Of a stretch of DNA of 21,035 nucleotides, positions 3,789 to 19,854 are shown one piece after another. Source of the DNA: a virus; IMG/VR virus record IMGVR_UViG_3300020450_001077, positions 1 through 21,035 of that record. One strand, 5' to 3'. The notes below the pieces were generated by a model. It had not been told where the DNA came from. It saw only the letters and a list, made by a program, of their open reading frames with translations, and searched no databases. The position numbers were made by a program, and so were the translations under genes. Positions within the stretch are counted from its first letter, which is position 1. The number at the start of each line of letters is the position of its first letter.

Positions 3789-3957
3789 TGATCTTGTTGT
3801 AGAAGCAAGAGAGTGGTCTATGAATAAGATCAATTCTGATATTCCTATGGAGAATGTAAAGGCAATATATGAAGAGTTTCAAGAGTGGATTGATATTGAT
3901 GAGGATGATGAAGAGTTAGAAATTTTATCATTAGAACCTATAGATGAGGAAAGTTAG
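3772..3957 (+). CDS. Small acidic hypothetical protein (61 aa)
   Basis: The reading frame is open further upstream (from 3556), but the start is placed at the ATG at 3772 because upstream of it lies the strongly supported GIY-YIG-like frame. The product is 61 residues and very acidic in its second half (EEFQEWIDIDEDDEELEIL), so it could be a small protein-binding or DNA-mimic-like protein. No family is recognised and there is no membrane segment. It overlaps the preceding gene by 17 bases and the following flavoprotein gene by 14, in keeping with tight translational coupling. Function unknown. Confidence 0.65.
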   Translation: MEKTSDDLVVEAREWSMNKINSDIPMENVKAIYEEFQEWIDIDEDDEELEILSLEPIDEES

Positions 3958-5050
3958 TGTAGTTGGTGGAGGAAATGCTGGAGTCTTTACTGCACTATAT
4001 TTTGCTTGGTATGGACAAGATGAAGTAGAGTTAATTTATAATCCACAAATACCTCCTGAAAGAGTAGGTCAAGCAACTCTTTTAGATCCTCCTAGAATGT
4101 TATGGAATGCTACTGGGTTTGATTGGTATCATAATCAAATTAATGCTACGTTTAAGAGTGGTATATTATATGAAGGGTGGGGTCAAGTAAATGATAAAGT
4201 ATTCCATGCCTTCCCTGCAGATGGTATGGCTATGCACTACTGTCCTTGGGAGATGCAGAAACATGTTTTAGATTCTGGAGTATTTAAAGTTGTTGAGGGT
4301 GACGTTGATGATATTAACAGTATAGATTCTGATCTTATCTTTGATTGTAGGGGAAAACCAGATGATTATTCTGAGTATGAAGAACTTATTAACCCTGTTA
4401 ATGCTTGTATCTTAGGGAAACCTAAGTGGAATGTATCTGAAGCATTCTGGAGTAGGCATGTTGCAACTCCTGATGGATGGACGTTTGTTATACCTACTCA
4501 TCCACAATCACCATCTCATGATTACTGTGTTGGGTATTGTTATAATAGTAATATAACTTCAAGAGCACTTGCTCAAAGTAATTTCTTAGAGATGTTTGAT
4601 GTTACAATAAAACATCATGTTAATTTTAAGAATTATGTAGCAAAGAATGCTGTTATTGATGATAGAATAGTTCTTAATGGTAATAGATTATTTTTTTTAG
4701 ACCCTCTTGAATCATCTTCCACTCAGACTTATATTGAGTTGGCAAGATTTGTTTTAAATAATGGAGTAAGAGATGCCTCTAATCAAGTTAGAAGATATAT
4801 AAAACAGGTTCAAAACTTTGTACTGTGGCATTATAATTGTGGTTCTAAATACGATACTCCTTTTTGGGATTATGCAGAGTCATTAACTTTTAATGACTCT
4901 GAGTTTGATTCTATATTAGATTCTAGTATAAAATCTAGTGATTATGATATTATGGATCAAGCAAATAATAATTCTAGATCGGGGTATGGTCAATGGACTC
5001 CCTATGCTTTTAAGTTGTGGTATGATGGTATGATGAGGAAAGAAAAATGA
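3944..5050 (+). CDS. Flavin-dependent tryptophan-halogenase-like enzyme
   Basis: A 368-residue FAD enzyme of the tryptophan halogenase family (PrnA/RebH type). Seen in order: the Rossmann FAD motif VGGGNAG (7-13); PERVGQATL (38-46), matching the family's GEAT(I/V)P region; the Lys in NATFKSG (K71), aligning with the catalytic Lys of PrnA (K79) that forms the haloamine or guides HOCl; GWTFVIP (178-184), a WxFxIP version of the diagnostic WxWxIP; and DPLESSS (253-259), close to the family's second FAD/halide loop. It is much shorter than characterised halogenases (about 510-540), lacking much of the C-terminal substrate lid, so the substrate is probably not free tryptophan. True halogenation needs a reduced-flavin partner, and none is seen here. 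I recall similar genes as common in cyanophages. Start at 3944 overlaps the previous gene. Confidence 0.85.
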   Translation: MRKVSVVGGGNAGVFTALYFAWYGQDEVELIYNPQIPPERVGQATLLDPPRMLWNATGFDWYHNQINATFKSGILYEGWGQVNDKVFHAFPADGMAMHYCPWEMQKHVLDSGVFKVVEGDVDDINSIDSDLIFDCRGKPDDYSEYEELINPVNACILGKPKWNVSEAFWSRHVATPDGWTFVIPTHPQSPSHDYCVGYCYNSNITSRALAQSNFLEMFDVTIKHHVNFKNYVAKNAVIDDRIVLNGNRLFFLDPLESSSTQTYIELARFVLNNGVRDASNQVRRYIKQVQNFVLWHYNCGSKYDTPFWDYAESLTFNDSEFDSILDSSIKSSDYDIMDQANNNSRSGYGQWTPYAFKLWYDGMMRKEK

Positions 5051-7057: not shown

Positions 7058-8167
7058 ATGTCTCAATATAAAAAAACTGCCCTTGTATTAGGTGCAGGTG
7101 GTTTCATAGGAAGTCACATGGTGAAGAGATTAAAGTCAGAAGGTTATTGGGTGCGTGGAGTAGATCTTCACTACCCTGAGTTCTCTGGTACACATGCTCA
7201 TGAGTTTGTTACTGGAGATCTTCGTGATGTAGATTTTGTAAAGAGAGTATTAGAGTTTAAAGGAGATCAAGGAAACTTCCACAACTCAGTTCCTTATAGA
7301 TGCATCGAACCATTCCATGAGATCTACCAGTTTGCTGCTGACATGGGTGGTGCAGGATTTGTATTTACTGGTGAGAATGATGCAGAGATTATGCATAACT
7401 CTTGCACCATTAACTTGAATGTTCTTGAAGAGCAAAGGAAGTTGAATGAAACCTTTGATGGTGTAAAGAAAGATTGGACAGCATGTAACAGACCTAAGTT
7501 AGATTACCAGACAAAGATATTCTATTCTGGATCAGCATGTATGTATCCTGAGTACAACCAAGTAGACCCTAACGATCCTAATTGCCGTGAAGATTCCGCG
7601 TACCCAGCTGCACCAGATTCCGAATATGGGTGGGAGAAACTTTTTTCAGAGAGATTGTACTTGGCTTACAATCGTAATTATGGTATTCCTGTTCGTATTG
7701 CCCGTTATCACAATATCTTCGGACCAGAAGGAACCTGGTTCGGTGGTAGAGAGAAAGCTCCAGCAGCAATATGCAGAAAGGTTGCTTATGCAGGACAAGA
7801 TGATACGATTGAAGTCTGGGGTGACGGAAAGCAGACTAGATCCTTCCTCTTTATAGATGAATGTATTGAAGCAACAAGAAGAATGATGGATTCTGACTTT
7901 ATAGGACCAGTTAATATTGGTTCAGAAGAGATGGTGACTATCAATCAACTAGTAGATACTGCTGCTAAGGTTGCTGGTAAGAATATTGATAAGAAACATA
8001 TTGATGGACCTCTTGGTGTTCGTGGACGTAATTCAAACAACGATCTTATCCGTAAGGAATTGGATTGGGATTATGAGATGACATTAGAAGAAGGTATACG
8101 CAAGACTTATAATTGGATCATGGGTGAGATTGCTAAAGAGGTTGTTGAAGCAGTCGGTACAATATGA
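7058..8167 (+). CDS. GDP-mannose 3,5-epimerase (extended SDR)
   Basis: A 369-residue NAD(P)-dependent sugar-nucleotide epimerase closely resembling plant GDP-mannose 3',5'-epimerase, which makes GDP-L-galactose (and GDP-L-gulose) from GDP-mannose. Seen: Rossmann motif GAGGFIG (12-18); QFAADMGG (91-98); SACMYPE (159-165) with C161; YGWEK with Y190 and K194; REKAPAAICRK with K233; WGDGKQTRSFLFIDEC; and VRGRNSNN near the C-terminus. C161, Y190, K194 and K233 sit at exactly the mutual spacings of the plant catalytic residues C145, Y174, K178 and K217, a strong argument for this activity rather than UDP-glucose 4-epimerase. The gene overlaps the GT11 gene (ATGA). No GDP-mannose dehydratase or GDP-fucose synthase is present, so its product may itself feed the next enzyme. 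Confidence 0.9.
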   Translation: MSQYKKTALVLGAGGFIGSHMVKRLKSEGYWVRGVDLHYPEFSGTHAHEFVTGDLRDVDFVKRVLEFKGDQGNFHNSVPYRCIEPFHEIYQFAADMGGAGFVFTGENDAEIMHNSCTINLNVLEEQRKLNETFDGVKKDWTACNRPKLDYQTKIFYSGSACMYPEYNQVDPNDPNCREDSAYPAAPDSEYGWEKLFSERLYLAYNRNYGIPVRIARYHNIFGPEGTWFGGREKAPAAICRKVAYAGQDDTIEVWGDGKQTRSFLFIDECIEATRRMMDSDFIGPVNIGSEEMVTINQLVDTAAKVAGKNIDKKHIDGPLGVRGRNSNNDLIRKELDWDYEMTLEEGIRKTYNWIMGEIAKEVVEAVGTI

Positions 8168-8988
8168 TTGGATTTAATTATCTCGGCAAGTTGGGACAAC
8201 TGGGAAACCAGATGTTCCAATATGCATCTTTGAAAGGTATTGCAAATCAGAATGGGTATAACTTTTGTATCCCCAACCATAATGAAATTTTTGAGGATGG
8301 TTTAGGAAACAGATTACACATAGAACTTTTTAAACCATTTGTTCTTGAGAACTTTAGTGATCTAAATGTTCAACTAATAGATGGAGATAGACCTGTAGTT
8401 CAGGAAGGTTCTTTTCATTTTAATGAGCAACTCTTTAACAACTGTCCTGACTGGGTATGTTTACATGGGTTCTTTCAGACAGAAAAATACTTTAAGAATA
8501 TTGAACAAGAGATAAGAGAAGACTTCACATTCAAGGATGATATATTAGAACCTTGTAAGGAGATGATGAGTCAATTTGATGAACCTCCTATCTCTCTTCA
8601 CATTAGACGTGGAGATTTTTTAATCAACTCTGCTAATCATCATAACCTTGGTCTTGATTATTATGAGAAGGCATTAGATGTAGTGCCAAGAGTGTATGAT
8701 AGTTGTGATCTTCCTGTTCTTATTTTTTCAGATGATCCTGAGTGGTGTAAGGAGCAAGAACTATTCTCATCAAATAGGTTTATGGTTGCAGAAGGTAATA
8801 GTGCTTATGTTGATATGTGTTTGATGACTCTATGCAGTCGTCACATAATTGCCAACAGTTCTTTTAGTTGGTGGGGTGCATGGTTGGCTAATTCTAAACA
8901 GGTAGTCGCTCCCTCTGTTTGGTTTGGACCTAATAACGCACACCTAGATATTAAAGATCTTTATCTTGATAATTGGGAGGTGATTTAA
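8164..8988 (+). CDS. GT11 family glycosyltransferase (alpha-1,2-fucosyltransferase-like)
   Basis: A 274-residue inverting glycosyltransferase of family GT11, whose known members transfer L-fucose from GDP-fucose to the 2-hydroxyl of galactose (H-antigen type). Motifs in order: GQLGNQMFQYA (11-21), the donor/acceptor loop; HIRRGDF (146-152), the GDP-binding HxRRGD signature; and NSSFSWWGAWL (231-241), the conserved C-terminal motif. Length fits bacterial GT11 enzymes. It is translationally coupled to the GDP-mannose 3,5-epimerase. GDP-L-galactose is GDP-L-fucose with a 6-hydroxyl, so I infer this enzyme could transfer L-galactose. A fucose donor from the host is the alternative. No signal or membrane segment: cytoplasmic. 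Confidence 0.92.
   Translation: MIGFNYLGKLGQLGNQMFQYASLKGIANQNGYNFCIPNHNEIFEDGLGNRLHIELFKPFVLENFSDLNVQLIDGDRPVVQEGSFHFNEQLFNNCPDWVCLHGFFQTEKYFKNIEQEIREDFTFKDDILEPCKEMMSQFDEPPISLHIRRGDFLINSANHHNLGLDYYEKALDVVPRVYDSCDLPVLIFSDDPEWCKEQELFSSNRFMVAEGNSAYVDMCLMTLCSRHIIANSSFSWWGAWLANSKQVVAPSVWFGPNNAHLDIKDLYLDNWEVI
8976..8983 (+). promoter_or_regulatory. Strong Shine-Dalgarno that fixes the methyltransferase start
   Basis: GGAGGTGA, complementary to the 16S rRNA 3' end, lies inside the last codons of the GT11 gene with seven bases between GGAGG and the ATG at 8988. It is the best ribosome site in the window, where most junctions rely on coupling, and it rules out the in-frame TTG at 8973 as the start. 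Confidence 0.75.
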
Positions 8989-9656
8989 TGAATATTGAAA
9001 ATAGATTAATAACAAACCATGATTTTACTTTATTGGAAAATTATAGAAATGAAAAGGGACTTGTAGAAAAGTATGAGCATCCTAATGGAACTTGGAGTAA
9101 TGGTGATGCTACTATTAAATGGACAGGTTCTGAGATAATCTTTGATAAGTTAGCAAAGAATGGGATGAAAGTTGTGGATTTAGGAGCAGGAGATGGACCT
9201 GTTGCTCATATGATTTCTAATAAAGGATATGATGTTGTTGGGGTTGATGTAAAGCCATGGAATTTTGGTTATCAAAGTTTAGCTGTAATGGTCACTAAGG
9301 ATGCTATAGAATTTGTAAGAGAGTATGAGGATAATTCTGTTGATATTTTTATGGATGGGTGTGCAGTAACTCACTTTAATGATATTGGTGATGAACAAAC
9401 TCCTAATAAAGGATGGAGAAGTATTTTTGAAGCAGTTAAGAGGGTAATGAAACCAGGTGGATATTTTATTTGCTTTTCTGATATTCAAGTTGGTAGTGAA
9501 ACTGTCATAGGAGAGTTTATAATACCAGAAGATATTGTTAGAATGGCAGAAGAATCTGGACTTACTTTAACATCTGAGTATAATTATAGTAGAGATGATC
9601 GGTTCTTACATTCAATTGGTTTGGGTGTAGCAAGTTTTGTATTTACTAAAAAATGA
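8988..9656 (+). CDS. Class I SAM-dependent methyltransferase
   Basis: A 222-residue methyltransferase with a Rossmann core. VVDLGAGDG (62-70) is motif I that binds SAM; VVGVDV (83-88) is the strand-2 end with the acidic ribose contact; DNSVDIFMDG is the motif at the strand-4 position; MKPGGYFICF is the post-motif III loop typical of small-molecule methyltransferases. The start at 8988 is chosen because of the GGAGGTGA site just upstream, and it overlaps the stop of GT11 as TAATG. Placed between two glycosyltransferases, the natural guess is O-methylation of a sugar in the glycan, but nothing in the sequence fixes the acceptor. Soluble. Confidence 0.82.
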   Translation: MNIENRLITNHDFTLLENYRNEKGLVEKYEHPNGTWSNGDATIKWTGSEIIFDKLAKNGMKVVDLGAGDGPVAHMISNKGYDVVGVDVKPWNFGYQSLAVMVTKDAIEFVREYEDNSVDIFMDGCAVTHFNDIGDEQTPNKGWRSIFEAVKRVMKPGGYFICFSDIQVGSETVIGEFIIPEDIVRMAEESGLTLTSEYNYSRDDRFLHSIGLGVASFVFTKK

Positions 9657-10393
9657 AAGTAGCAATTGCATTTATTGGTACTAATAAGTATCTTGATTAT
9701 TTACCACAATACTATGAAAATATAGAAAAGTATTTTCTTCCTAATACCGAAAAAACTATATTAGTATTTACTGATGGTAAATTGAATGACACTCCTGATA
9801 ATGTAAAAGTATATCATCAGGAGCATTTGCCTTGGCCTTATATAACTTTGAAGAGATTTGAGATTATTAATAAGGCAAGAGAAGAGATTAAAAAAAATGA
9901 TTGGTTTGTTTTTATAGATGCTGATGCTTTACCTGTTGATACTATAAGAGAAGTAGATTTTCTTGCGAGATGTTGTGGTGCTTCAACTGATGAAGTTCCC
10001 TTGTTTGGTGTTCATCATCCTTGCCATTACTTAAAGATGCCACCACATTTACAAGGAACTGGTGCATATGAAACTAATGAAAAATCTGAAGCATATTTTG
10101 ATGTATCAGAATTGCCACCCATATATTGGCAAGGATGTTTCTGGGGTGGTAAAGTTCCCTCTGCTTTATCTATGATAGATGAATTAGAAGCAAGAGTGAA
10201 TAGAGATTTGGAGAAAGATATTGTTGCAGTATGGCATGATGAAACTCATATCAATAAGTATTTTTTTGAAAGAGAATTTGATGTCTATACTTTTGAACCA
10301 GAGTATGCATATCCTGAAGTTTTTGATGAGTATTGCAAATTTGAACCAAAGATAGTACACTTAGCAAAGGATAATTCCAAGTATCAACAATGA
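9653..10393 (+). CDS. GT6 family glycosyltransferase (ABO / alpha-1,3-Gal(NAc) transferase type)
   Basis: A 246-residue retaining glycosyltransferase of family GT6, the family of human blood-group A and B transferases. Seen: FIGTNKYLDYLPQYYENIEKY (only partly quoted family start, residues 7-27); LPWPYITLKRFEII (59-72), which matches the family's PWPxxTLxRF; DADAL with D89-x-D91, the Mn/UDP-sugar motif; YWQGCFWGG (158-166), matching the YYxGGxFGG donor/acceptor loop; and WHDETHINKYF (194-204), the near-invariant WHDESHLNKYF. Vertebrate members have a transmembrane stem that is absent here, as in bacterial enzymes. Bacterial GT6 proteins often replace DxD with NxN; this one keeps DxD. I recall a GT6 homologue noted in a Prochlorococcus phage. 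It overlaps its neighbours on both sides (ATGA). Confidence 0.9.
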   Translation: MKVAIAFIGTNKYLDYLPQYYENIEKYFLPNTEKTILVFTDGKLNDTPDNVKVYHQEHLPWPYITLKRFEIINKAREEIKKNDWFVFIDADALPVDTIREVDFLARCCGASTDEVPLFGVHHPCHYLKMPPHLQGTGAYETNEKSEAYFDVSELPPIYWQGCFWGGKVPSALSMIDELEARVNRDLEKDIVAVWHDETHINKYFFEREFDVYTFEPEYAYPEVFDEYCKFEPKIVHLAKDNSKYQQ

Positions 10394-10932
10394 AAGAAGA
10401 ACTATTAGAACTCTTAAAGAAAGATGCTTATAAGAAAGGAGAGTTTAAACTTTCTTCTGGCAAGACTAGTGAGCATTATGTAAATTGCAAACCAGTAACA
10501 TTAACTGGAAGAGGACTTACTCTTGCTAGTTTGTTGATGTTGATGCATGTAAAAACTGATTATGTTGCAGGACTTACTCTTGGTGCTGATCCTTTAGTGA
10601 GTGGTGTTGCATTAGTATCTGCTTTAGATAATAGGTTGGTTAATGGTTTGATAGTTCGTAAAGAAGCAAAGGGTCATGGTACTCAAGCATGGATAGAAGG
10701 TTTATTGCCAAGAGAAAGAACTAATATAACTGTGTTGGAAGATGTTATTACCACAGGAGGATCAGCAATTCAAGCAGTTAAGAGGTTGCGTGATGCTGGT
10801 TATGTTGTCAATCGTGTTGTGAGTATTATAGATAGACAGGAAGACGGTGAAGCCGATACTGCTATGAAATTAGCAGGACTAGAACTTATAAGTATATTTA
10901 AGTTGGATGAGTTGACAGATGAGAATGAATGA
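10390..10932 (+). CDS. pyrE: Orotate phosphoribosyltransferase
   Basis: A 180-residue type I phosphoribosyltransferase that makes orotidine monophosphate from orotate and PRPP in pyrimidine synthesis. The PRPP-binding loop VLEDVITTGGSA (115-126) has the paired acidic residues and TTGGS typical of OPRT. RKEAKGHGT (90-98) is the flexible catalytic loop, with K91, K94 and H96. YVNCKPVTL (30-38) matches the OPRT orotate/5'-phosphate region. Length is a little short of bacterial PyrE (about 210). It would raise UMP, and so dCTP and dTTP supply, alongside the reductase genes. It overlaps the GT6 gene upstream (ATGA) and a 55-codon gene downstream. Confidence 0.92.
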   Translation: MKEELLELLKKDAYKKGEFKLSSGKTSEHYVNCKPVTLTGRGLTLASLLMLMHVKTDYVAGLTLGADPLVSGVALVSALDNRLVNGLIVRKEAKGHGTQAWIEGLLPRERTNITVLEDVITTGGSAIQAVKRLRDAGYVVNRVVSIIDRQEDGEADTAMKLAGLELISIFKLDELTDENE

Positions 10933-11092
10933 TCAAACAAAAATAGTATATGCATTAGAGCATATAGCACACCTTCATGACTTGATTGATGATAATTATT
11001 GGGAAGACTATTTACGTGAGAACTTATATAGTTTAGAATATGTATTAGAAGCACAACTAACAGAGACTTACAAAAGGAAAGGATTAAACTAA
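10925..11092 (+). CDS. Small hypothetical protein (55 aa)
   Basis: A short gene from ATG 10925 to TAA 11090-11092. It gives a 55-residue helical acidic protein beginning MNDQTKIVYALEHIAHLHD, with DDNYWEDYLRENLYSLEYVL in the middle and a basic end (YKRKGLN). It overlaps pyrE by eight bases, and its stop shares bases with the next ATG (TAATG), so it fills an otherwise empty 160-base gap exactly; that is the main argument that it is real. An AAAGGA ribosome site for the next gene (11078-11083) lies in its last codons. Function unknown. Confidence 0.65.
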   Translation: MNDQTKIVYALEHIAHLHDLIDDNYWEDYLRENLYSLEYVLEAQLTETYKRKGLN

Positions 11093-11331
11093 TGGAACTA
11101 ACAGACTTAAATGTTAATAATGTTTTGAATGAGATCCGTCCTTACATCGAAGCAGATGGAGGGTACTTGGAATTTGTATCAATAGATTATCTAGAAGAAG
11201 GTCCAGTTGTATTTGTTAAACTTTTAGGTGCATGTGAGTCATGTGCTATGAGTTCCTTGACTCTTAAACAAGGTATAGAAACCCACTTGCAAGCACAGTG
11301 GCCAGAAATTTCACAGGTAATTCAAGTATGA
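11092..11331 (+). CDS. NfuA/NifU C-terminal-domain Fe-S carrier protein
   Basis: A 79-residue stand-alone NifU C-terminal (Nfu) domain, which carries or delivers [4Fe-4S] clusters as a homodimer through one C-x2-C per chain. Seen: VLNEIRPYIEADGGYLEFV (11-29), with the family's RPxxxxDGG; and LLGACESCAMSSLTLKQGIE (45-64), with C48 and C51 in the family's GxCxxCxxSxxTLxxGIE. The length equals cyanobacterial minimal Nfu proteins, which supply clusters to photosystem I. A well-placed AAAGGA precedes the ATG by eight bases. It sits between nucleotide genes pyrE and purS. A job in maintaining host photosystem I or another Fe-S enzyme during infection is inference. Confidence 0.9.
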   Translation: MELTDLNVNNVLNEIRPYIEADGGYLEFVSIDYLEEGPVVFVKLLGACESCAMSSLTLKQGIETHLQAQWPEISQVIQV

Positions 11332-11993: not shown

Positions 11994-12830
11994 ATGAAAA
12001 AACTTGAGACGGGTTTATCTGGATGTACCTTGGAGTTGATCGATTCTAATATACTCAGAAAGCACTCGTCATCTGAATCATATAATAAAAGACTAGACCT
12101 ACAGGTCAAGAAGCAACAACTGTTCTCTACTCAAGTCTATAGGAACATAGAGACTCCTAAAGTATTGAGTAAAGAGAATGGTTATTTTGACATGGAATAT
12201 GTGACTGGTAGATCCTTTGATGAGTATTTTTCTACCTGTAGTGTGAATGATATAGAGTTTGTTCTTACTTCTTTGTTTGAATACTTTGATTGTGTAATAT
12301 CTAACTCAAGATACTATGCACCTGAAGTGTCTAAGAAGAGATTGTTAGATAAGATTAACTCATTAGAGACTCATACTCGTCACCTAACAGATCTCTATCA
12401 CATTAGACAGATGGTAAGTAGCATCACCATGAAGATACCTCAAACGTTCTGTCATGGTGATCTCACCTTTACTAATATCATTTTCAATAAGAATAGATTG
12501 TATCTTATAGATTTTCTGGATTGTTTTATAGACTCTTTCCTATGTGATTTGATTAAGTTGAAGCAAGACCTTTACTATCACTGGAGTTTGGATGTGCAGG
12601 GAGTAGAAAGTTTAAGAATTAGGCAGATATATTCTTACATATGGGAGAAAATAGAGGAAAGGTATAGTGAATATGTGGACACTATTGAGTTTAATGTTCT
12701 TGATATATTAAACACATTAAGGATAGAACCTTACTTGACTAATGAAGATCAAAGACTTATAATTAAGAGGATGCTTAAGTGTTCTAGTTTATATGGCAAC
12801 GTTAGTTGTACCGATGGCAGGGAGGTCTAG
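11994..12830 (+). CDS. Aminoglycoside/choline-kinase-like small-molecule kinase
   Basis: A 278-residue kinase of the APH/choline-kinase fold. Seen: K23 (ILRKHS) as the likely ATP Lys; FDMEYVTGRSFDEYF (65-79), matching the hinge M-E-x-I-x-G; CHGDLTFTNIIF (153-164), the catalytic loop with D156 and N161; and LIDFLDC (171-177), with D173 as the Mg-binding DFG-like Asp. Members phosphorylate sugars, choline, ethanolamine or antibiotics. The setting, overlapping a nucleotidyltransferase-HAD fusion by 38 bases, points to a sugar or head-group substrate. The kinase half of 16789-18333 is a second kinase of the same fold. Exact substrate not readable. Confidence 0.8.
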   Translation: MKKLETGLSGCTLELIDSNILRKHSSSESYNKRLDLQVKKQQLFSTQVYRNIETPKVLSKENGYFDMEYVTGRSFDEYFSTCSVNDIEFVLTSLFEYFDCVISNSRYYAPEVSKKRLLDKINSLETHTRHLTDLYHIRQMVSSITMKIPQTFCHGDLTFTNIIFNKNRLYLIDFLDCFIDSFLCDLIKLKQDLYYHWSLDVQGVESLRIRQIYSYIWEKIEERYSEYVDTIEFNVLDILNTLRIEPYLTNEDQRLIIKRMLKCSSLYGNVSCTDGREV

Positions 12831-13851
12831 TAGATACCCTGACCTAAGACCAAAATGGATGCTCTCTCACCCTATGTCCAATACCTTTATGGGTATTGCT
12901 GCTATATCAGGGTTGAATTTAGAGTTTTTTGATAAGATTTACTGGGTCACTCTACAAGAATACCAAGATAAGTATAAGTTTGAGAAAGGATACTTTGAGG
13001 AACTAGATGAGGTTGGTCTTAAAGAGAAGTCAGAGATAGTATTGTTAGATAAAGAAACATCATCGCAGTCAGAAACTGTGTGTGAGGTCATTAAGAAAAA
13101 GAATATTGAAGGGTTTATCTTTATCAAGGACTCTGATGGATACTATGAGTGTGAGATAAAGGATGGATCAAATCAGGTTGCATACTTTGACCTGAATGAT
13201 ATGGACAACATCAACGCACGGTCAAAGAGTTATGTTGAGATGGATCATAATGGTGTAGTGACTAATATTGTAGAGAAGAAAGTAATCAGTTCTACATTCT
13301 CATCAGGTGGGTATGGTTTCTCTGATCCACAGGAGTTCATATCAGTCTATGAGAAGTTAGGTGAGCAAGATGGAGAGTGTTATGTAAGTAATATTATCTT
13401 TGAGATGATGCTTTCTGGATCTAAGTTTAATGGTCTGAAGACTTCTAACTTTAAGGACTGGGGAACACTAGAGGCATGGAACAAGTACAAGTCTCAGTAC
13501 AAATGTTTGTTTGTAGATATAGATGGTACGTTAGTAAAGAACTCTTCTCATCACTTCCCACCTTATATTGGGAGTGGTGAACCATTAGAGGAGAATATTG
13601 CTGCACTTAATGAACTATATGATAATGGTAAGGCAAGAATTATTCTTACAACCAGTAGACCAGAAAGGTATAGGCAGACTACTTGTGAGGAGTTAGAGAG
13701 AAAGGGTATTAGATTTGATCAGTTAGTGATGGGATTACCTCATTCACAGAGGATCTTGATTAATGATTTTGCAAAGAGCAATCCTTACCCCTCTGCTGCT
13801 GCTATAAATATGCCTAGAAATAAAAATGACTTGAAGGAGCTTTTGAGATGA
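12793..13851 (+). CDS. Fusion: nucleotidyltransferase (N) - HAD phosphatase (C)
   Basis: A 352-residue two-domain protein. Residues 1-235 are a sugar-nucleotide-transferase-like GT-A fold: VVPMAGRSSRYPDLRPKWML (5-24), a variant of the glycine-rich NTP loop with the PK lysine; DSD at 113-115 as a metal site; STFSSGGYGF (167-176); and DWGTLEAW (222-229), matching the family's D-I-G-T-P-E-x-W. Residues 238-352 are a HAD phosphatase: FVDIDGTL (240-247, nucleophile D242 and acid D244), TTSRPERYR (286-294), and GLPHSQRILINDF (314-326), with the Asp that binds Mg. The same HAD domain occurs alone at 15595-15942. The kinase, phosphatase and NTP-transferase steps together resemble the Hdd-type route to activated heptose, but the sugar is not determined. 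The gene overlaps its neighbours at both ends. Confidence 0.82.
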   Translation: MATLVVPMAGRSSRYPDLRPKWMLSHPMSNTFMGIAAISGLNLEFFDKIYWVTLQEYQDKYKFEKGYFEELDEVGLKEKSEIVLLDKETSSQSETVCEVIKKKNIEGFIFIKDSDGYYECEIKDGSNQVAYFDLNDMDNINARSKSYVEMDHNGVVTNIVEKKVISSTFSSGGYGFSDPQEFISVYEKLGEQDGECYVSNIIFEMMLSGSKFNGLKTSNFKDWGTLEAWNKYKSQYKCLFVDIDGTLVKNSSHHFPPYIGSGEPLEENIAALNELYDNGKARIILTTSRPERYRQTTCEELERKGIRFDQLVMGLPHSQRILINDFAKSNPYPSAAAINMPRNKNDLKELLR

Positions 13852-14846
13852 AGATTTTAATAACAGGTGCTGCAGGGCAGATAGGTTCTGGGTTGGCAAA
13901 AAGAATTTGTGAGAAGCACGAATTAACACTAGTAGATAATCTTAGGAATGGATATTTACAACATCTAAAGGATGATGATGGTGAATTTATTGCACCATTC
14001 CATGATATAGATGTAGCAACATCAGAACTTTTTAGTCATTGTGGAACTAAGTTTGATAGTTATGATGCGATCATTCATCTTGCTGCTATATCATCTCTAC
14101 CAGATTGTGAAACTAATCCACTAGAGACACTTCACTGCAACGTAGCTGCTACTGCAAATGTATTAGACTTTGCCAGAAAGATGAATGTTCCTCATGTCAT
14201 CTTCGCAAGCACGAGTGCCATCTATGAGAACAATGATGTAGATGTATTCACAGAAGATCTAGAAGTAAGTCCAAGATTATACTACTCACTATCTAAGAAG
14301 ATGTGTGAGGATTTGGTTGAGACATATAGAGAGCACTATGGAAGTAAAGTCACAGTACTTCGTTTCTTTAATGTTTTTGGTCCTGATGGTGATCAGACAA
14401 GACCTAATCCACCTTTACTTAACTTTGTTTATAGAGAGTTGACTAAAGGTAAAGCACCTGTATTGAGTGGTGATGGTGAGCAAGTAAGAGATTTTATCTG
14501 TATTGATGATGTAGTTTCTATGCTTGATCTATGTCTTGAGAAGCAACCAAATGATGTCTTTAATGTATGTACAGGTAAGGCAGTAAGTGTAAATCAAATA
14601 TCCAGATGGGTTGCTGAAGCACTAGGGAAAGAGGATCTTGGATTAGATCATAAACCAGCAGGAGAACTATGGGATCATTATCCTGATTTGTTCCAAGGTA
14701 ATTATGGTCTTGATAAGAATATTGTTGGTAAGGAAACTACAAGATATTCCAAGGGGTCTTATCAAAAGGCAAAAGATCTGTTAGGATGGGAACCTAATAC
14801 TGATATAGAGTCAGAAGTTAAAAGAGTCACCTTACAAATCAAATGA
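13848..14846 (+). CDS. NAD-dependent nucleotide-sugar epimerase/dehydratase (extended SDR)
   Basis: A 332-residue extended short-chain dehydrogenase. GAAGQIG (7-13) binds NAD(P); HLAAISSLPDCETNP (77-91) is the typical strand-4 loop; ASTSAIYE (120-127) holds S121/T122/S123; Y146-x3-K150 (YYSLSK) is the catalytic pair; RFFNVFGPDGD matches the family's substrate loop; GDGEQVRDFICIDD matches the conserved uridyl-binding segment. Overall it looks most like UDP-glucose 4-epimerase or UDP-glucuronate/UDP-GlcNAc epimerases, clearly different from the GDP-mannose 3,5-epimerase at 7058. The HDIDV segment (52-56) after the second strand suggests the usual adenine-side Asp. An AAGGAG site lies upstream of the ATG. 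It overlaps the fusion gene before and the SGQPRF gene after (ATGA), in one run. Confidence 0.87.
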   Translation: MKILITGAAGQIGSGLAKRICEKHELTLVDNLRNGYLQHLKDDDGEFIAPFHDIDVATSELFSHCGTKFDSYDAIIHLAAISSLPDCETNPLETLHCNVAATANVLDFARKMNVPHVIFASTSAIYENNDVDVFTEDLEVSPRLYYSLSKKMCEDLVETYREHYGSKVTVLRFFNVFGPDGDQTRPNPPLLNFVYRELTKGKAPVLSGDGEQVRDFICIDDVVSMLDLCLEKQPNDVFNVCTGKAVSVNQISRWVAEALGKEDLGLDHKPAGELWDHYPDLFQGNYGLDKNIVGKETTRYSKGSYQKAKDLLGWEPNTDIESEVKRVTLQIK

Positions 14847-15595
14847 GAATAGCTTTATTATTGTCTGGTCAACCCAGATTTATTGAGGAAGGAGCAAAAT
14901 ATATTATTCCTAACGTATGTGAAGGGAATAATGTAGATACTTTCTGTCACTTCTGGATGGATGATGACCTAGTTACTAAACCATATAAGTATGGTGGAGA
15001 TGGTGAGTGGGTAAACCAAAGGATCGATTCTAAGGCAGTAGATAAAGCAGTAGAGATTTATAAACCAGTTACTTATGCAGTAGATCGTAGCAAATCATTT
15101 ACAGACTCTGCTGTTCACTTTGAGACTCCAAAGAATAAGTATTGGGGTGGTGGAGAACCAGAAGATCAAGAAGGATTTAGAAATAGAACTGTCAACAACT
15201 GTCTTTCATACTTCTATAGTCTGAATGAGGTCAACAAACTCAAGAAGGAATATGAATATGCTAATGACTTTAAGTATGATTGGGTGGTAAGATGTAGGAC
15301 AGATACGTTATTACATGTTAAAATACCTTTTAATGATCTAAATCCTGAGATGGTTCATTACTCTGACAATATGCACCAACCTGATGGTATGATTAATGAT
15401 TGGTTTGACTTTGGTGGATCAAAACAGATGGATGCATTCATGAGTGTATTCCCTGTATGGCAATTGATCCTTGAGAAATGTATGCGTGAGACAGAGGGAG
15501 CATGGTGTCATGAATTGATGCACCGTAAGATGCTTGATTCATTTGGTATTGGTGTTCAACCATGCAATATTCATATTACACTTCCTAGATTTTAA
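14843..15595 (+). CDS. Putative glycosyltransferase of the SGQPRF type
   Basis: A 250-residue soluble protein starting RIALLLSGQPRF (2-13), a beta-strand/loop typical of a group of poorly described GT-A-like proteins in polysaccharide loci. YDWVVRCRTDTLL (about 144-156) holds R-x-R-T-D, the likely DxD-like metal/nucleotide site of this group. NDWFDFGGSKQMDAF follows and fits their acceptor region. The acidic Glu-rich CHELMHRKML is near the C-terminus. It has no signal peptide. The partial gene at the window end (20377) shares SGxPRF, RTD and the DWF motif, so these are paralogues closing two similar gene sets. Glycosyl transfer is inferred from locus and motif, not shown. Confidence 0.7.
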   Translation: MRIALLLSGQPRFIEEGAKYIIPNVCEGNNVDTFCHFWMDDDLVTKPYKYGGDGEWVNQRIDSKAVDKAVEIYKPVTYAVDRSKSFTDSAVHFETPKNKYWGGGEPEDQEGFRNRTVNNCLSYFYSLNEVNKLKKEYEYANDFKYDWVVRCRTDTLLHVKIPFNDLNPEMVHYSDNMHQPDGMINDWFDFGGSKQMDAFMSVFPVWQLILEKCMRETEGAWCHELMHRKMLDSFGIGVQPCNIHITLPRF

Positions 15596-15942
15596 TGAAA
15601 ACTATTTTTTGTGATATTGATGGAACATTATGTGTTCATCATGAAGATATTATCAAACAACATAGAGATGAGTTAACTCTTCTACCAGAGACTTTAGATG
15701 TGTTGAAGGAGTGGGAGAGGAGTGGTCATCGTCTTATCCTTGTGACTGGACGGAAGGAGTCTCACCGTGGACAACTGGAAAGACAGTTAAGAAATGCTGG
15801 TATTTTCTGGGATAAATTAATTATGGGATTATCAAATGGTCCTAGAGTGATTGTGAATGATGTCAAAGAGGGTGGTGAGGATAGAGCACTAGGATATAAT
15901 GTAAAAAGAAACATGGGTATTAAGGAGTTGAGGAACTTATGA
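15595..15942 (+). CDS. Stand-alone HAD phosphatase
   Basis: A 115-residue HAD-superfamily hydrolase: FCDIDGTLC (5-13) has nucleophile D7 and acid D9; LVTGRKESHR matches motif II with the Thr; NGPRVIVNDVKEGGEDRA holds the motif IV Asp. It is the same short, cap-less HAD type as the C-terminal domain of 12793-13851 (compare LIMGLSNGPRVIVND with LVMGLPHSQRILIND), which implies a shared role, probably removal of a phosphate from a sugar bisphosphate or similar before nucleotidyl transfer. The start shares bases with the previous stop (TAATG), and the end overlaps the cupin gene. Confidence 0.83.
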   Translation: MKTIFCDIDGTLCVHHEDIIKQHRDELTLLPETLDVLKEWERSGHRLILVTGRKESHRGQLERQLRNAGIFWDKLIMGLSNGPRVIVNDVKEGGEDRALGYNVKRNMGIKELRNL

Positions 15943-16289
15943 CTTTTAGATCATACGGACACAAACCTTGGGGACATTATCTAAACATCTTTGATGCCTC
16001 TTATACAAAGGTTAAAGAAATACTAATCAAACCTGGTGAAGCACCTAGTTATCAATATCATTACAAGAGAAGTGAGATATGGGTGATAGTAAAAGGAACT
16101 GCAGAGGTAAAATTAGATGGTGTGGTTAAGACTTATGGGGAGGGTGATGTAATTCATATCCCAGTAAAGTCTAAGCACCAAGCCAAGAATGTTGGTGATG
16201 ATGATCTAGTTTTTATTGAAGTACAACTTGGAGAGTACTTTGGTGAAGATGATATTGTGAGGTTAGAGGATAAGTATGGTAGAGTATAA
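15939..16289 (+). CDS. Mannose-6-phosphate-isomerase type II (cupin) protein
   Basis: A 116-residue single cupin, equal to the C-terminal domain of ManC/AlgA-type bifunctional enzymes (mannose-6-phosphate isomerase half). The start has YGHKPWGHYLNI, matching the R-P-W-G-x-Y opening. SYQYHYKRSEIWVIVKGTAEV (from 37) contains the metal set Q39-x-H41-x4-E46 and the G-x-A-x-V turn. GEGDVIHIPVKSKHQAKN follows, with distal H80. It would supply mannose-6-phosphate from fructose-6-phosphate, or act on another sugar. That agrees with a GDP-mannose-based epimerase in the window, although no mannose-1-phosphate guanylyltransferase of the ManC kind is attached. It overlaps the HAD and oxygenase genes. Confidence 0.85.
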   Translation: MTFRSYGHKPWGHYLNIFDASYTKVKEILIKPGEAPSYQYHYKRSEIWVIVKGTAEVKLDGVVKTYGEGDVIHIPVKSKHQAKNVGDDDLVFIEVQLGEYFGEDDIVRLEDKYGRV

Positions 16290-16785
16290 AGTTATTGATA
16301 ATTTTTTATCACCGTATCTATTCAATAAGCTTGTATATGAAACTAATCCAGTTGTAGATTATAAAAAAACCGACTCTATGAAATGGGGGTATTGCAAAAC
16401 AGTGCTCGATGCTCCAGAGTCTTTAGGTGATAATATGTATTTTGAGAATTTGATATATTCTAATACAATATATAATGAAAAATATTATAAGATTCTTAAG
16501 GTTTTAACAGATAAATTAGATATTAAATCATTAATTAGAATAAAATTTAATTTATATACAAGAACAGATAATTTAATACATCATCCTAATCACTCTGATA
16601 CAGAATTTCCTCATAAAGGAGGATTGTTTTCATTAAACACTTGCGATGGTTTTACTGTTATAGATGAGGAAGAAATTCCATCAGTTGCAAATAGAATGAT
16701 TCTTTTTGATCCTTATATTCCACATCATAGTACTAATTGTACTGATTCTCCATATAGAATGAATGTTAATATTAATTATTTTTAA
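16276..16785 (+). CDS. 2OG/Fe(II) oxygenase, paralogue 1 (169 aa)
   Basis: A compact 169-residue 2-oxoglutarate/Fe(II) oxygenase. The core has H106-x-D108 (NHSDTEF), a jelly-roll segment with NTCDGFTVID, then H150/H151 (IPHHSTNC) as the distal His and R161 (SPYRMNVNINYF) as the 2-oxoglutarate contact. It shares layout and ending (xxRxxVxxNYF) with the protein at 19851. The start at 16276 has an AGAGGA site five bases upstream and overlaps the cupin gene by 14. The gene is far more A+T-rich than its neighbours: the line 16501-16560 holds only seven G+C in 60. That suggests a separate origin. The substrate may be a sugar or lipid of the locus, which is inference. Confidence 0.82.
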   Translation: MVEYKVIDNFLSPYLFNKLVYETNPVVDYKKTDSMKWGYCKTVLDAPESLGDNMYFENLIYSNTIYNEKYYKILKVLTDKLDIKSLIRIKFNLYTRTDNLIHHPNHSDTEFPHKGGLFSLNTCDGFTVIDEEEIPSVANRMILFDPYIPHHSTNCTDSPYRMNVNINYF

Positions 16786-16788
16786 ATT

Positions 16789-18333
16789 ATGTATAAAGTA
16801 TTAATTACTGCTAGTGGGTTGGGTTCACGACTTGGTAATCTTACTAAGTTTACCAACAAAGGACTGGTTAGGATTGGAAAGAAACCTGCTCTCAGTTATA
16901 TTATTGAGTCATATCCTGATGATGTAGAGTTTGTTGTGACTCTGGGTCATTATGGTGATCAGGTAGAGCAGTTCTTATCTCTTGCTTACCCTGATAAGAA
17001 GATTACTTATGTTCCAGTAGAGAACTATGATGGAGAAGGAAGTAGTCTTCTTTATTCTATGTCCCTATGTAAGGATGAGTTGCAGTCTCCTTTTATATTC
17101 CATGCATGTGATACTGTAGTAGAGAAAGAAGAGTTTGACTTTAGTTCTAACTGGGTTGCAGGTCATAAAAATGGTAGTAGTTTCCAATATAGAACTCTGA
17201 ATGTAAGGAATGAATCTCTGTTAAAGATTAATGAGAAGGGAGAAGAGTTCTTTGATTATGTTTACATAGGTCTATGTGGTATCAAAGATTATGAATTGTT
17301 CTGGAAATATACTGATGAGATATTAGAAGAGACAACAGTAAGTAGTCTTTCGGATTGCCATGTCATTTCTAAGATGATGGATCATTCTGATTTCTCAGTT
17401 GTAGACTATGAGACATGGTATGATATTGGTAATGTAGATTCACTTAAGAAGAGTAGAGAAGTAATCCCTGATAGGTTCCACCTTTTAGATAAAGAAGATG
17501 AGAGTATCTTTATTTTTGATGAAGACTTTGTGATTAAGTTCTTCTATGATAAAAAAATTTGTTTAAATCGTATAGACAGGATGCTTGCACTCAAGGGTCT
17601 TACTCCAAAGTATCTTGCATCAACAGATAATTTTTATAAGTATGAGTATGCCAAGGGTGATACTTATTCTAGAGTGGTAGATGGTAATAACTTTAAGAAG
17701 TTTTTGAATTGGTCTAAGGATAATCTATGGAAGAAGAATGACATAGACATCTCAGATATATGTGAGGAGTTTTATTTTACTAAAACTTATAAGAGGGTGG
17801 TAAAGTATCTAACTGATAATGGAATGGGTACTGATAGTACTTGTACAATTAATGGTGAAGAAATTCCATCTATATTTGATTTGATGGTTCATATTGATAA
17901 GAAGTATATATCCTCTGCTGAAGGGTATCAGTTTCATGGTGACTGTGTACTAGAGAATATTATTTCTAAGGATGGTAATTATACTTTGATTGACTGGAGA
18001 CAAGACTTTGGTGGTGATAAGTATAATGGTGACATATATTACGACTTAGCTAAACTGAAACACAACTTAACTGTCAATCATGATATACTAGATAAGGAGT
18101 TGTATAGTATTGATATTGATGGTAAGATTGTTAAAGTTGATATACTTAGAAGTAATGAGAAGTGTGAGTGTGTTGAGATATTAGAAGATTGGATTGAGAC
18201 AGAAGGTCTTGATAATAGAAAGGTTGATATTATTAAGTCTTTGATCTGGATTAACATGGCTCCTTTACACCCACAACCTATTGGTGATTTTCTTTTCTAT
18301 TTTGGTAAATACAATCTACATTTAAATCTATGA
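16789..18333 (+). CDS. Fusion: nucleotidyltransferase (N) - APH/choline-kinase-like kinase (C)
   Basis: A 514-residue fusion. Residues 1-235 are a sugar-1-phosphate nucleotidyltransferase domain: LITASGLGSRLGNLTKFTNK (5-24) is the NTP loop; HACDTVV (105-111) the metal Asp; WYDIGNVDSLKKSREV (210-225) the family end motif. Residues 240-514 are a kinase: K250 (FVIKFF) is the ATP Lys; YKYEYAKGDTYS (283-294) the hinge; FHGDCVLENII (382-392) the catalytic loop with D385 and N390; LIDWRQDFGGD (400-410) the Mg site. The two activities would phosphorylate a substrate and then activate it as an NDP derivative, much as LicA and LicC do for choline or HddA and HddC for heptose. It is a different domain order from the set at 11994-13851. 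Confidence 0.83.
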   Translation: MYKVLITASGLGSRLGNLTKFTNKGLVRIGKKPALSYIIESYPDDVEFVVTLGHYGDQVEQFLSLAYPDKKITYVPVENYDGEGSSLLYSMSLCKDELQSPFIFHACDTVVEKEEFDFSSNWVAGHKNGSSFQYRTLNVRNESLLKINEKGEEFFDYVYIGLCGIKDYELFWKYTDEILEETTVSSLSDCHVISKMMDHSDFSVVDYETWYDIGNVDSLKKSREVIPDRFHLLDKEDESIFIFDEDFVIKFFYDKKICLNRIDRMLALKGLTPKYLASTDNFYKYEYAKGDTYSRVVDGNNFKKFLNWSKDNLWKKNDIDISDICEEFYFTKTYKRVVKYLTDNGMGTDSTCTINGEEIPSIFDLMVHIDKKYISSAEGYQFHGDCVLENIISKDGNYTLIDWRQDFGGDKYNGDIYYDLAKLKHNLTVNHDILDKELYSIDIDGKIVKVDILRSNEKCECVEILEDWIETEGLDNRKVDIIKSLIWINMAPLHPQPIGDFLFYFGKYNLHLNL

Positions 18334-18908
18334 ATTTCAATAAACCTGATACTAAATTAGATGAATGTATCTTTATAGCACAGAAGGCTATTCCTGCTGA
18401 TGTTTGTGATAATCTTGTTCAAGATATAGAAAAAGGAGAGTGGCAACCTCATTATTGGAGGGATACCTATGGTCAGGAGATTGGGGAAAAATTAGATAAA
18501 GAACTTGATATTCAAATCGGTAATCCAAAATTTCAGAAACTTTTAACTCCTTTTGTGGTAGAATGTGGCAAATTATATAATAAAGAATATTCATATTATG
18601 GTAGACAAATAATGTATCATTTTAGTACTATTCGTTTTAATAGATATTCTCCTGGTCAGATCATGCGTAAACATCATGATCATATTCATTCACTTTTTGA
18701 TGGTAAGATTAAAGGAGTACCAGTACTAAGTTTTATTCTTAATTTTAATGATGATTATGAAGGTGCTGATTTATATTTCTGGGAGGATACTGTGATTAAA
18801 CTAGGTAAAGGTGATATCGTTATGTTTCCCTCTAATTTTTTATTCCCACATGGTGTGACTGAGGCAACCAAAGGATTAAGATATTCTGGAGTATGTTGGG
18901 CTTGGTAA
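18330..18908 (+). CDS. 2OG/Fe(II) oxygenase, PKHD/prolyl-hydroxylase type (192 aa)
   Basis: A 192-residue 2OG/Fe(II) oxygenase of the prolyl-hydroxylase type. RFNRYSPGQIMRKHHDHIH (102-120) supplies H115-x-D117. SFILNFNDDYEGADLYFWED (134-153) is the typical L-N-D-x-F-x-G-G-x-L-x-F region. LGKGDIVMFPSNFLFPHGV (158-176) holds distal H174, and GLRYSGVCWAW the 2-oxoglutarate contact R184. The overall pattern is close to PKHD hydroxylases found in many phages. It differs in type from the two paralogues at 16276 and 19851 and from the one beside nrdB. It overlaps the fusion gene (ATGA). Substrate unknown. Confidence 0.86.
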   Translation: MNFNKPDTKLDECIFIAQKAIPADVCDNLVQDIEKGEWQPHYWRDTYGQEIGEKLDKELDIQIGNPKFQKLLTPFVVECGKLYNKEYSYYGRQIMYHFSTIRFNRYSPGQIMRKHHDHIHSLFDGKIKGVPVLSFILNFNDDYEGADLYFWEDTVIKLGKGDIVMFPSNFLFPHGVTEATKGLRYSGVCWAW

Positions 18909-18909
18909 T

Positions 18910-19854
18910 ATGAATCCAAAACTTTTTATAGGACCGATGAGTAAAGAGATAGTTGATGCAGTCATCGACTATCCTACTCCTCTTGGATTGATACCATCTC
19001 GTCGTCAGGTAGACCATGAGAGTGGGTATGTTAATGGTTGGGTAACAGAAACTTTTTGCAATTATGTAAGAAGTAAAACTGATAAGGTTCTATTGGTAAG
19101 AGATCATGGTGGTCCTAATCAAGGATATAAAGTTGATAATGGTATAGAGTCTTTCTTAATTGATTGTCAGAACTTTGATATGATTCATATAGATCCTTTC
19201 AAAAGGTTTAAAGCAATCAAGGATGCAGTCAATGAGACTCTTAAGTTTATGAGAATGGGTCTACAAGTCAATCCTAATATTAAGTTTGAGATTGCAACAG
19301 AGGAAGCAATCAAACCACTACCACCAGAGAAACTTTCTTCATTCTTAAAGAGAATATATTCTTCTACTACACAGGAGGAGCAAGACTCAATTAAGTATTG
19401 TGTAATCCAATCTGGTACTGCACTCAGAGAGAATAAGAATATAGGATCATATAAGAAAGATTGTTTGGAGAAGTCAATAGAGATAGTGAAGGAGTATGGT
19501 TTAATTAATAAGGAACATAATGGAGACTACTTAGAAACATCTTTAATTAAACAGAAGTTTGATGTAGGACTACAGACGATTAACATAGCACCAGAGTTTG
19601 GTCAGTTACAGACTAAGATATACTGGGAGAATATGAACCAGAAACAGAGGACTAATTTCTATAAGATATGTTTGGACTCAGGTAGGTGGAAGAAGTGGGT
19701 TGATGAAGACTTTGATCCAGAAGTTCATGTAGAAGCCTTGGTAAATATATGTGGGCATTATGTTTTTTCCCACCCCAAGTTTAATAAACCAGAGGGTTTA
19801 GAAGAAGAAATAAAAACAACAATACACAAAAGGATTGAAGAGATTTTGTTATGA
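18910..19854 (+). CDS. Tagatose-bisphosphate-aldolase-subunit (GatZ/KbaZ)-like TIM-barrel protein
   Basis: A 314-residue soluble protein. LGLIPSRRQVDHESGYVNGW (25-44) and LLVRDHGGPNQGY (61-73) resemble the SxxQV..GGYxG and GGDHxGPNxW strands of the GatZ/KbaZ family, the partner chain of tagatose-1,6-bisphosphate aldolase. DMIHIDPFK (90-98) fits a third barrel strand with an active-site Asp/His pair, and FEIATEEAI (126-134) matches the family's ExxTEExI segment. The DHGGPN His/Asn and HID residues could bind metal or phosphate. GatY/KbaY, the catalytic partner, is not in the window, so it may act alone as a sugar-phosphate aldolase or synthase. Family level is moderately sure; activity is open. 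Confidence 0.6.
   Translation: MNPKLFIGPMSKEIVDAVIDYPTPLGLIPSRRQVDHESGYVNGWVTETFCNYVRSKTDKVLLVRDHGGPNQGYKVDNGIESFLIDCQNFDMIHIDPFKRFKAIKDAVNETLKFMRMGLQVNPNIKFEIATEEAIKPLPPEKLSSFLKRIYSSTTQEEQDSIKYCVIQSGTALRENKNIGSYKKDCLEKSIEIVKEYGLINKEHNGDYLETSLIKQKFDVGLQTINIAPEFGQLQTKIYWENMNQKQRTNFYKICLDSGRWKKWVDEDFDPEVHVEALVNICGHYVFSHPKFNKPEGLEEEIKTTIHKRIEEILL

Follow-up and report, generated by a model that had tools for sequence, protein, structure and literature searches.

How one cyanophage comes to hold two full trios of kinase, HAD phosphatase and nucleotidyltransferase (NT), each built around a different gene fusion, is the question raised by positions 11994 to 18333 of IMG/VR record IMGVR_UViG_3300020450_001077, a linear virus fragment of 21,035 bases (the window). 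Set A comprises a free APH-type kinase and an NT-HAD fusion; the core of set B is a free HAD phosphatase and an NT-kinase fusion. A first-pass annotation read the two as the same parts, reshuffled as modules to make two different activated sugars or head groups. Its four open reading frames (ORFs) and both architectures are confirmed, and all four activities are correct as to fold or family (Pfam, profile comparison, AlphaFold models and fold searches). The common stock of parts and the reshuffling find no such support. On balance, the sets are probably two separately inherited cassettes for the activation of sugars as nucleoside diphosphate (NDP) derivatives, derived from bacterial surface-polysaccharide loci. 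The nrdB product of the window shares 91% identity with that of Prochlorococcus phage P-SSM2 and 98% with that of the single-cell amplified genome MH319741 (Marine virus AG-345-E15), which marks the window as T4-like cyanophage DNA; by sequence, its source is a fragment of a P-SSM2-like Prochlorococcus myovirus.

Set A begins with a free APH-type small-molecule kinase of 278 aa (11994-12830, plus strand, as are all window genes from here to 19854), which exceeds the Pfam APH cut-off (E 2e-8). Its gene shares 38 bases with that of the NT-HAD fusion (12793-13851). The N-terminal domain of the fusion, NT_A (residues about 1-232; 12793-13488), has no Pfam or NCBIfam nucleotidyltransferase match over cut-off. 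A profile of 20 homologues matches the Vibrio cholerae sugar pyrophosphorylase 4evw (E 0.0019), and in an AlphaFold model of the fusion, with a mean predicted local distance difference test score (pLDDT) of 68.7, NT_A aligns to 4evw with Z 20.8 at 2.8 A over 216 residues; the domain is predicted to have a sugar-pyrophosphorylase fold. Structure prediction and search, proposed in the first-pass annotation, thus served for NT_A, while the HAD half, with pLDDT mostly below 60 past residue 225, was modelled too poorly to be searched by fold separately. The assignment of HAD_A (residues about 233-352; 13489-13851) rests on sequence, with a HAD_SAK_2 match just over cut-off (28.0 against 27.5 bits) and a DxDGT motif. 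Another candidate family for NT_A, NF052297 (VV20781; E 0.063), was dropped as a chance match because its members, found in 7 of 299 genomes, read as a short secreted or lipoprotein-like family without sugar-gene neighbours in the stretches read.

The catalytic motifs of the kinase and HAD domains, whose loss would have undone the idea of two working trios, are intact in the window, with few exceptions among relatives. For set A, the HGDxxxxN motif and second Asp of the kinase are kept in 38 of 38 homologues, the DxDGT of HAD_A in 40 of 40 and the NT_A loop motif in 36 of 39. IMG/VR scans returned 37 loci with the NT-HAD fusion, many on contigs that are near copies, and 23 distinct sequences with at least 85% query coverage were obtained from 51 loci including MH319741 and L040. 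Neighbours were counted in 40 records, namely the window, MH319741, L040 and the 37 loci. The APH gene lies immediately 5' of NT-HAD, with a brief overlap, in all 38 virus records uncut at that point, so the arrangement is beyond chance. A gene of the short-chain dehydrogenase/reductase (SDR) type follows immediately on the 3' side in 38 of the 40, the exceptions being L038 and L040. In the window this companion is an NAD-dependent sugar-nucleotide epimerase/dehydratase (13848-14846; Pfam Epimerase E 2e-49), succeeded by a phrog_13607 protein (14843-15595; E 3e-51) that is a probable glycosyltransferase.

Set B opens with the free phosphatase HAD_B (15595-15942; 115 aa), over cut-off for Pfam Hydrolase and Hydrolase_3. 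The NT-kinase fusion (16789-18333) divides into NT_B (residues about 1-228; 16789-17472) and the APH-type kinase KIN_B (residues about 229-514; 17473-18333). Its Pfam matches in the window fall under cut-off (NTP_transf_3 E 1e-4; APH E 0.012), and a bacterial homologue exceeds both cut-offs. The NT_B profile matches LicC (1jyk) at E 3e-8, which speaks for kinship and not for specificity, followed by other cytidylyltransferases. All 28 KIN_B homologues retain HGDxxxxN and the second Asp, and the NT_B loop is kept in 18 of 19, or in 24 of 26 when the cut is relaxed. HAD_B has DxDGT in 18 of 20, both misses being remnants (L005 and L015), and the motif II pattern in 17 of 20.

The trios named by the first-pass annotation stand, though it missed the SDR that usually accompanies set A and two companions of set B. 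The first of these (15939-16289) is a cupin of the single-domain type II mannose-6-phosphate isomerase type, a member of PF01050 (E 7e-30; 104 bits against a cut-off of 23.6) spanning profile positions 12-116 of 116. The second (18910-19854) is a GatZ/KbaZ-like triosephosphate isomerase (TIM)-barrel aldolase or ketose 4-epimerase. Its AlphaFold model (pLDDT 86.3) is closest to 2fiq (Z 27.4; 308 residues aligned, 2.9 A) and 3txv (Z 26.3), with further matches to tagatose 4-epimerase 9kcs (Z 23.7), UxaE (Z 23.2) and class II aldolase 1gvf (Z 20.7), and predicts a full-length GatZ fold. A DH pair and an EHNGDY stretch are among its invariant residues, and RDHxGP and EHxxDY occur in 26 of 26 homologues. 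A GatZ-like match of about 26% in four Listeria phage records (OR846732, OR848100, OR848179 and OR846727) was set aside as probable host DNA; the gene lies near a record end.

Conservation of gene order ties these companions to set B. An alignment scan gave 21 virus loci, which with the window and MH319741 make 23 records. The GatZ-like gene lies 3' of NT-kinase in all 22 records uncut on that side (L061 is cut), separated from it by an oxygenase gene in the window, L042 and L051. The cupin gene lies 5' of NT-kinase in 20 of 21 uncut virus records (L049 is without it; L042 and L051 are cut), with another gene between the two in the window and L048. Of 19 testable records, 18 carry a HAD_B-type gene, 12 times on the 5' side and 6 times on the 3' side (L042, L045, L051 and L061 are cut; L049 is without one). 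That the HAD changes side yet persists argues that it belongs to the set-B pathway. Set B is therefore larger than HAD plus NT-kinase, and includes the cupin and the GatZ-like enzyme.

Two ORFs in the window stand within this cassette and outside the module. One (16276-16785) belongs to phrog_274, whose PHROG label, 'DNA endonuclease V', looks doubtful here; it is missing at this site in L002, L040 and L041, where the cupin gene abuts NT-kinase. The other (18330-18908) is a 2-oxoglutarate-Fe(II) oxygenase (PF13640 E 3e-11), missing at this site in L002, L040 and L041 and present in L042 and L051. MH319741, L040 and L041 lack both.

Comparison of the corresponding domains shows how little the two sets have in common. 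NT_A and NT_B have no detectable kinship (profile comparison E 0.41) and the two kinases are distant (E 3e-5); the HADs alone are close (E 7e-26; 33% identity). In the kinase tree, the set-A APH and set-B KIN_B fall on opposite sides of a 100/100 branch, with free kinases (8 phage and 2 bacterial rows) on one side and fused kinases (8 phage and 2 bacterial) on the other; rows from WavE loci and from phage S-SRM01, outside these labels, lie on the fused side. In the HAD tree all A rows are split from all B rows at a 97/99 branch, leaving aside rows in no group, and this speaks against exchange of HADs between the sets. The approximately unbiased test does not reject a single clade of the 11 HAD_A rows (p-AU 0.08), in a tree of 121 columns with long bacterial and S-SRM01 branches and an unsure root. 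Deeper down, the two HADs share a common origin. The histories of the sets thus appear separate, and older than the sampled phages or at least with bacteria on both sides. Unrelated nucleotidyltransferases, bacterial members in each kinase lineage and the occurrence of both fusions in bacteria leave reshuffling inside the phage unsupported; both fusions were probably inherited ready-made from bacteria.

The search of bacteria for both fusion architectures, suggested alongside the first-pass annotation, recovered the two of them. NT-HAD, with an APH gene ahead of it, occurs in Rhizobium sp. CFBP 8762 (L053; 35% identity), where set A lies between two WavE genes and beside an ABC-2 permease and ATPase. 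A first scan of bacterial contigs with two conserved peptides confirmed 1 of 86 candidate stretches and tells little of abundance; among 289 same-class genomes, NT-HAD was found at E 1e-10 in two, the Rhizobium and G269. In G269 (L064), set A is flanked on both sides by phrog_13607-type genes, true homologues by profile (E 2e-19), and LicD, GT2 and GDP-mannose dehydratase genes lie on its 3' side. WavE itself was rejected as a homologue of the phrog_13607 protein, the profile match (E 0.038 over 34 columns) being no better than some unrelated controls.

A search of 398 same-phylum genomes, drawn from a larger group, found NT-kinase in 6. The cupin gene adjoins it on the 5' side in 6 of 6 loci, and a GatZ-like gene is present in four (L072, L073, L075 and L076). 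A HAD gene, identified by translation, adjoins the GatZ-like gene in L072, L073 and L075. That of L072 is KdsC-like, at 80.3 bits under the TIGR01670 cut-off of 107, and those of L073 and L075 are near-identical to it by eye. Set B would thus have retained its HAD activity while the HAD family switched, from HAD_B in phages to a KdsC-like HAD in bacteria. The genes, families and folds, intact motifs, conserved cassettes, separate lineages and bacterial members are observed, and support the reading of two inherited cassettes.

The two sets are seldom found together. No set-A virus record of 37 matched the set-B fusion profile, and among the 21 set-B records the set-A fusion profile gave one full-length match (G693/L040), a further seven covering the HAD part alone, that is, HAD_B. 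Both sets are present in three records (the window, MH319741 and L040); as the records range from 5 to 281 kb and are mostly fragments, absence of the second set is weak evidence. The first-pass annotation knew of no description of such a pair. The pair is rare. A related row was already annotated in a phage isolate, S-SRM01. In L005 (10823-11140) and L015 (2753-3070), a HAD_B without its DxDGT start lies behind an intact set A and phrog_13607 gene, and the set-B fusion profile detects no NT-kinase in either record, suggesting that set B was lost there.

Among described systems, the nearest in activities is MupP-AmgK-MurU of Pseudomonas peptidoglycan salvage, in which a sugar-6-phosphate is dephosphorylated by a HAD phosphatase (MupP), rephosphorylated at C1 by an anomeric kinase (AmgK) and uridylylated by a nucleotidyltransferase (MurU), according to passages of PMC5371407. 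The three activities are common to both window sets and the order is likely the same; the window domains are fused otherwise. At the level of families, the set-A kinase scores 16.5 bits against AmgK (NF045759, cut-off 550), which the set-B fusion does not match, and that fusion scores 20.5 bits against MurU (NF045761, cut-off 250). The heptose route (HddA, GmhB, HddC), offered as precedent in the first-pass annotation, is a weak parallel. Both kinases are APH-type and no GHMP family, to which an HddA would belong, is among the Pfam matches; HAD_B reaches 23.6 bits against a GmhB cut-off of 178 (NF006506) and NT_B 20.0 against an HddC cut-off of 300 (NF049965). The window HADs also have no match to the EcbF-BcbF capsule phosphatase family TIGR01689 (cut-off 162 bits).

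Closer relatives in gene content are found in a phage and in bacterial lipopolysaccharide (LPS) loci. The Synechococcus phage isolate S-SRM01 (MW015081; L110, 3915-6327) has a sugar isomerase (SIS) gene, an NTase-APH fusion annotated as 'NDP-sugar synthase' and an adjacent small HAD annotated as '3' phosphatase', a label that is probably wrong given the sugar-activation row. This resembles the window in its adjacent fusion and HAD; unlike set B, it has the SIS isomerase in place of cupin and GatZ-like genes, and its kinase and HAD lie on long branches. With the set-A fusion as query, the HAD part alone was matched in S-SRM01. In the WavE-type LPS-core loci L105, L107 and L108, a HAD, a KIN_B-like fusion (E 2e-11), an NT_A-like nucleotidyltransferase (E 3e-11) and WavE stand together. 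These differ from the window in having one HAD, one kinase and a nucleotidyltransferase not fused to a HAD, and the N half of their fusion has no Pfam nucleotidyltransferase match. The three come from genomes of one family, probably Vibrionaceae, to judge by 4evw and by the VV20781 lipoprotein found in the centre genome. A third build, a HAD_2-type phosphatase fused ahead of NTP_transferase, occurs in L043 (1985-3358) and, by eye, in L059 (5015-6397), on contigs that also carry set B; NT_A profile matches of similar size are present in L044, L047, L048, L049, L050 and L052. Because WavE loci, S-SRM01 and L043 show further builds, fusion of nucleotidyltransferases to kinases or HADs appears to be a general habit of such loci. 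Neither fusion query, set A or set B, matched a P-SSM2 record. Cyanophage S-SCSM1, which is T4-like, has a one-domain type II mannose-6-phosphate isomerase (in passages of PMC9602691) of the same type as the window cupin, which sits in the conserved NT-kinase/GatZ-like cassette.

For all substrates, the nucleotide, the order of steps and the placing of product on host surface or virion, we infer pathways by analogy. In set A, HAD_A would free or trim a phosphorylated sugar, the APH kinase would add a phosphate, most likely at the anomeric carbon, and NT_A would make an NDP-sugar for the SDR to modify and for the phrog_13607 protein or another transferase to use; a kinase-first order, as in heptose activation, is equally open. 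In set B, the GatZ-like enzyme may make or epimerise a ketose phosphate, which the PMI-type (phosphomannose isomerase-type) cupin would interconvert with an aldose phosphate; HAD_B would then take off the phosphate, KIN_B rephosphorylate at C1 and NT_B form the NDP-sugar. In each, the HAD and kinase pair would replace a phosphomutase, as in MupP-AmgK-MurU, and the NDP-sugar products may end up as decoration of the host surface or virion. That the conserved cassettes have distinct companion enzymes argues for two different products, so the first-pass expectation of two activated compounds is a fair one, and a sugar in place of a head group is the likelier nature of each.

Several results weigh against this reading. 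Every kinase and NT domain of the window scores below the cut-offs of characterised families. NT_B is nearest by sequence to LicC and enzymes using cytidine triphosphate (CTP), which would suit the making of a cytidine diphosphate (CDP)-alcohol equally well. The GatZ-like window protein matches nothing in Pfam (PF08013 included) or NCBIfam, though its bacterial homologue in L072 passes the PF08013 cut-off (36.3 against 26.7 bits). Locus L049 lacks both cupin and HAD, and no GatZ-like gene was found within the fetched stretches of bacterial loci L071 and L074. For cyanophage LPS genes at large, the authors of PMC3037559 leave undecided, in the relevant passages, whether they are functional or stuffer DNA.

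The strongest alternative, which we consider unlikely though serious, is a route in LicA-LicC style, in which the sets would turn non-sugar alcohols (choline-, polyol- or glycerol-like) into CDP-compounds that serve to decorate glycans or lipids through phosphodiester links. LicC is both the top NT_B profile match and its nearest solved relative, with other cytidylyltransferases next; the choline-kinase family PF01633 weakly matches the set-A kinase (E 1e-4; 22.1 bits against a cut-off of 29) and does not match set B; and the bacterial set-A locus L064 has LicD and CTP_transf_like genes. Precedent for the fusion exists in LicCA of Treponema denticola, in which a nucleotidyltransferase precedes a choline-kinase-like domain; here the choline-kinase Pfam score stays under cut-off, and the fusion has HAD, cupin and GatZ-like companions. 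Passages of PMC7368946 make no mention of the LicCA fusion. LicA-LicC is not known to need a HAD, an isomerase-type cupin or an aldolase or epimerase, all of which accompany set B, the SDR that follows set A in nearly all records is a sugar-nucleotide enzyme, and no LicD is present among the 20 window ORFs scanned (pyrE, nrdB and small ORFs being left out). Distinctly less probable is that both sets give one product or two nearly identical ones, with one set spare or decaying. The closeness of the two HADs would suit this, as would the HAD_B remnants lacking both DxDGT and a set-B fusion in L005 and L015; the NT families and companions (SDR as against cupin and GatZ-like) differ, and the window motifs are intact.

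That the genes are functionless passengers has been raised in print for cyanophage LPS genes, in the same passages of PMC3037559, and would fit the rare co-occurrence of the sets. It is very improbable for genes whose catalytic motifs are retained across 48-99% identity and whose overlaps and cassette order are retained in dozens of records. A role in nucleic-acid end repair (Pnkp or Swiss-army-knife type) can hardly be credited: the HAD profile matches bacterial Pnkp1 (E 3e-8), HAD_SAK_2 is the sole Pfam family over cut-off for HAD_A, and PHROG and S-SRM01 labels speak of polynucleotide kinase or 3' phosphatase, but there is no ligase or polynucleotide-kinase domain, the partners are APH kinases, sugar-pyrophosphorylase-fold nucleotidyltransferases, an SDR, a PMI cupin and a GatZ-like enzyme, and the related WavE-locus HAD of L107 exceeds the capsule-biosynthesis phosphatase cut-off of TIGR01689 (234 against 162 bits).

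Within the reading of two inherited sugar-activation cassettes, a further proposal can be made, though tentatively and with doubt that it holds as a whole: set B may be an undescribed phosphomutase-bypassing NDP-sugar pathway shared whole by bacteria and phages, and the exchange of fusion partners may mark a different order of steps in each set. NT-kinase would join consecutive steps if the HAD acts first, as in the MupP order, and NT-HAD would do so if the kinase acts first, as in the heptose order, so that one phage might run the same chemistries in two orders. Against such a rule, HldE fuses non-consecutive steps. No account of these fusions, or of set B as a group (HAD, PMI-type cupin, NT-kinase and GatZ-like genes), turned up by exact-word matching in the open-licence part of PubMed Central. 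There are precedents for the parts, for the logic and for each of the fusions; within that literature, the set-B gene group is the new element.

Both sets sit in a sugar locus, preceded in the window by SDR, GT11, methyltransferase and GT6 genes, and passages of PMC3037559 describe large LPS gene clusters in the T4-like cyanophages P-SSM2 and S-SSM7. GT11, of the fucosyltransferase type, lies near GT6, of the blood-group-transferase type (8164-10393), and a histo-blood-group-like epitope on a phage-made glycan is possible. Amid the sugar genes are also an orotate-phosphoribosyltransferase-like ORF, recognized by eye (10390-10932), and a gene for a NifU-like iron-sulfur scaffold domain (11092-11331). 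A tryptophan-halogenase family protein, in a cyanophage, is encoded at 3944-5050 (PF04820 E 3e-25).

If these pathways hold, cyanophages import whole donor-sugar factories, beyond single glycosyltransferases, and set B may yield an undescribed sugar donor. Its gene content is open to direct test as five small, soluble and separable enzymes, and the exchange of HAD families between phage and bacterial versions hints at a phosphorylated intermediate. A use would also be given to the 'orphan' NT-kinase and NT-HAD fusions of bacterial capsule and LPS loci, so far named vaguely by automatic annotation.

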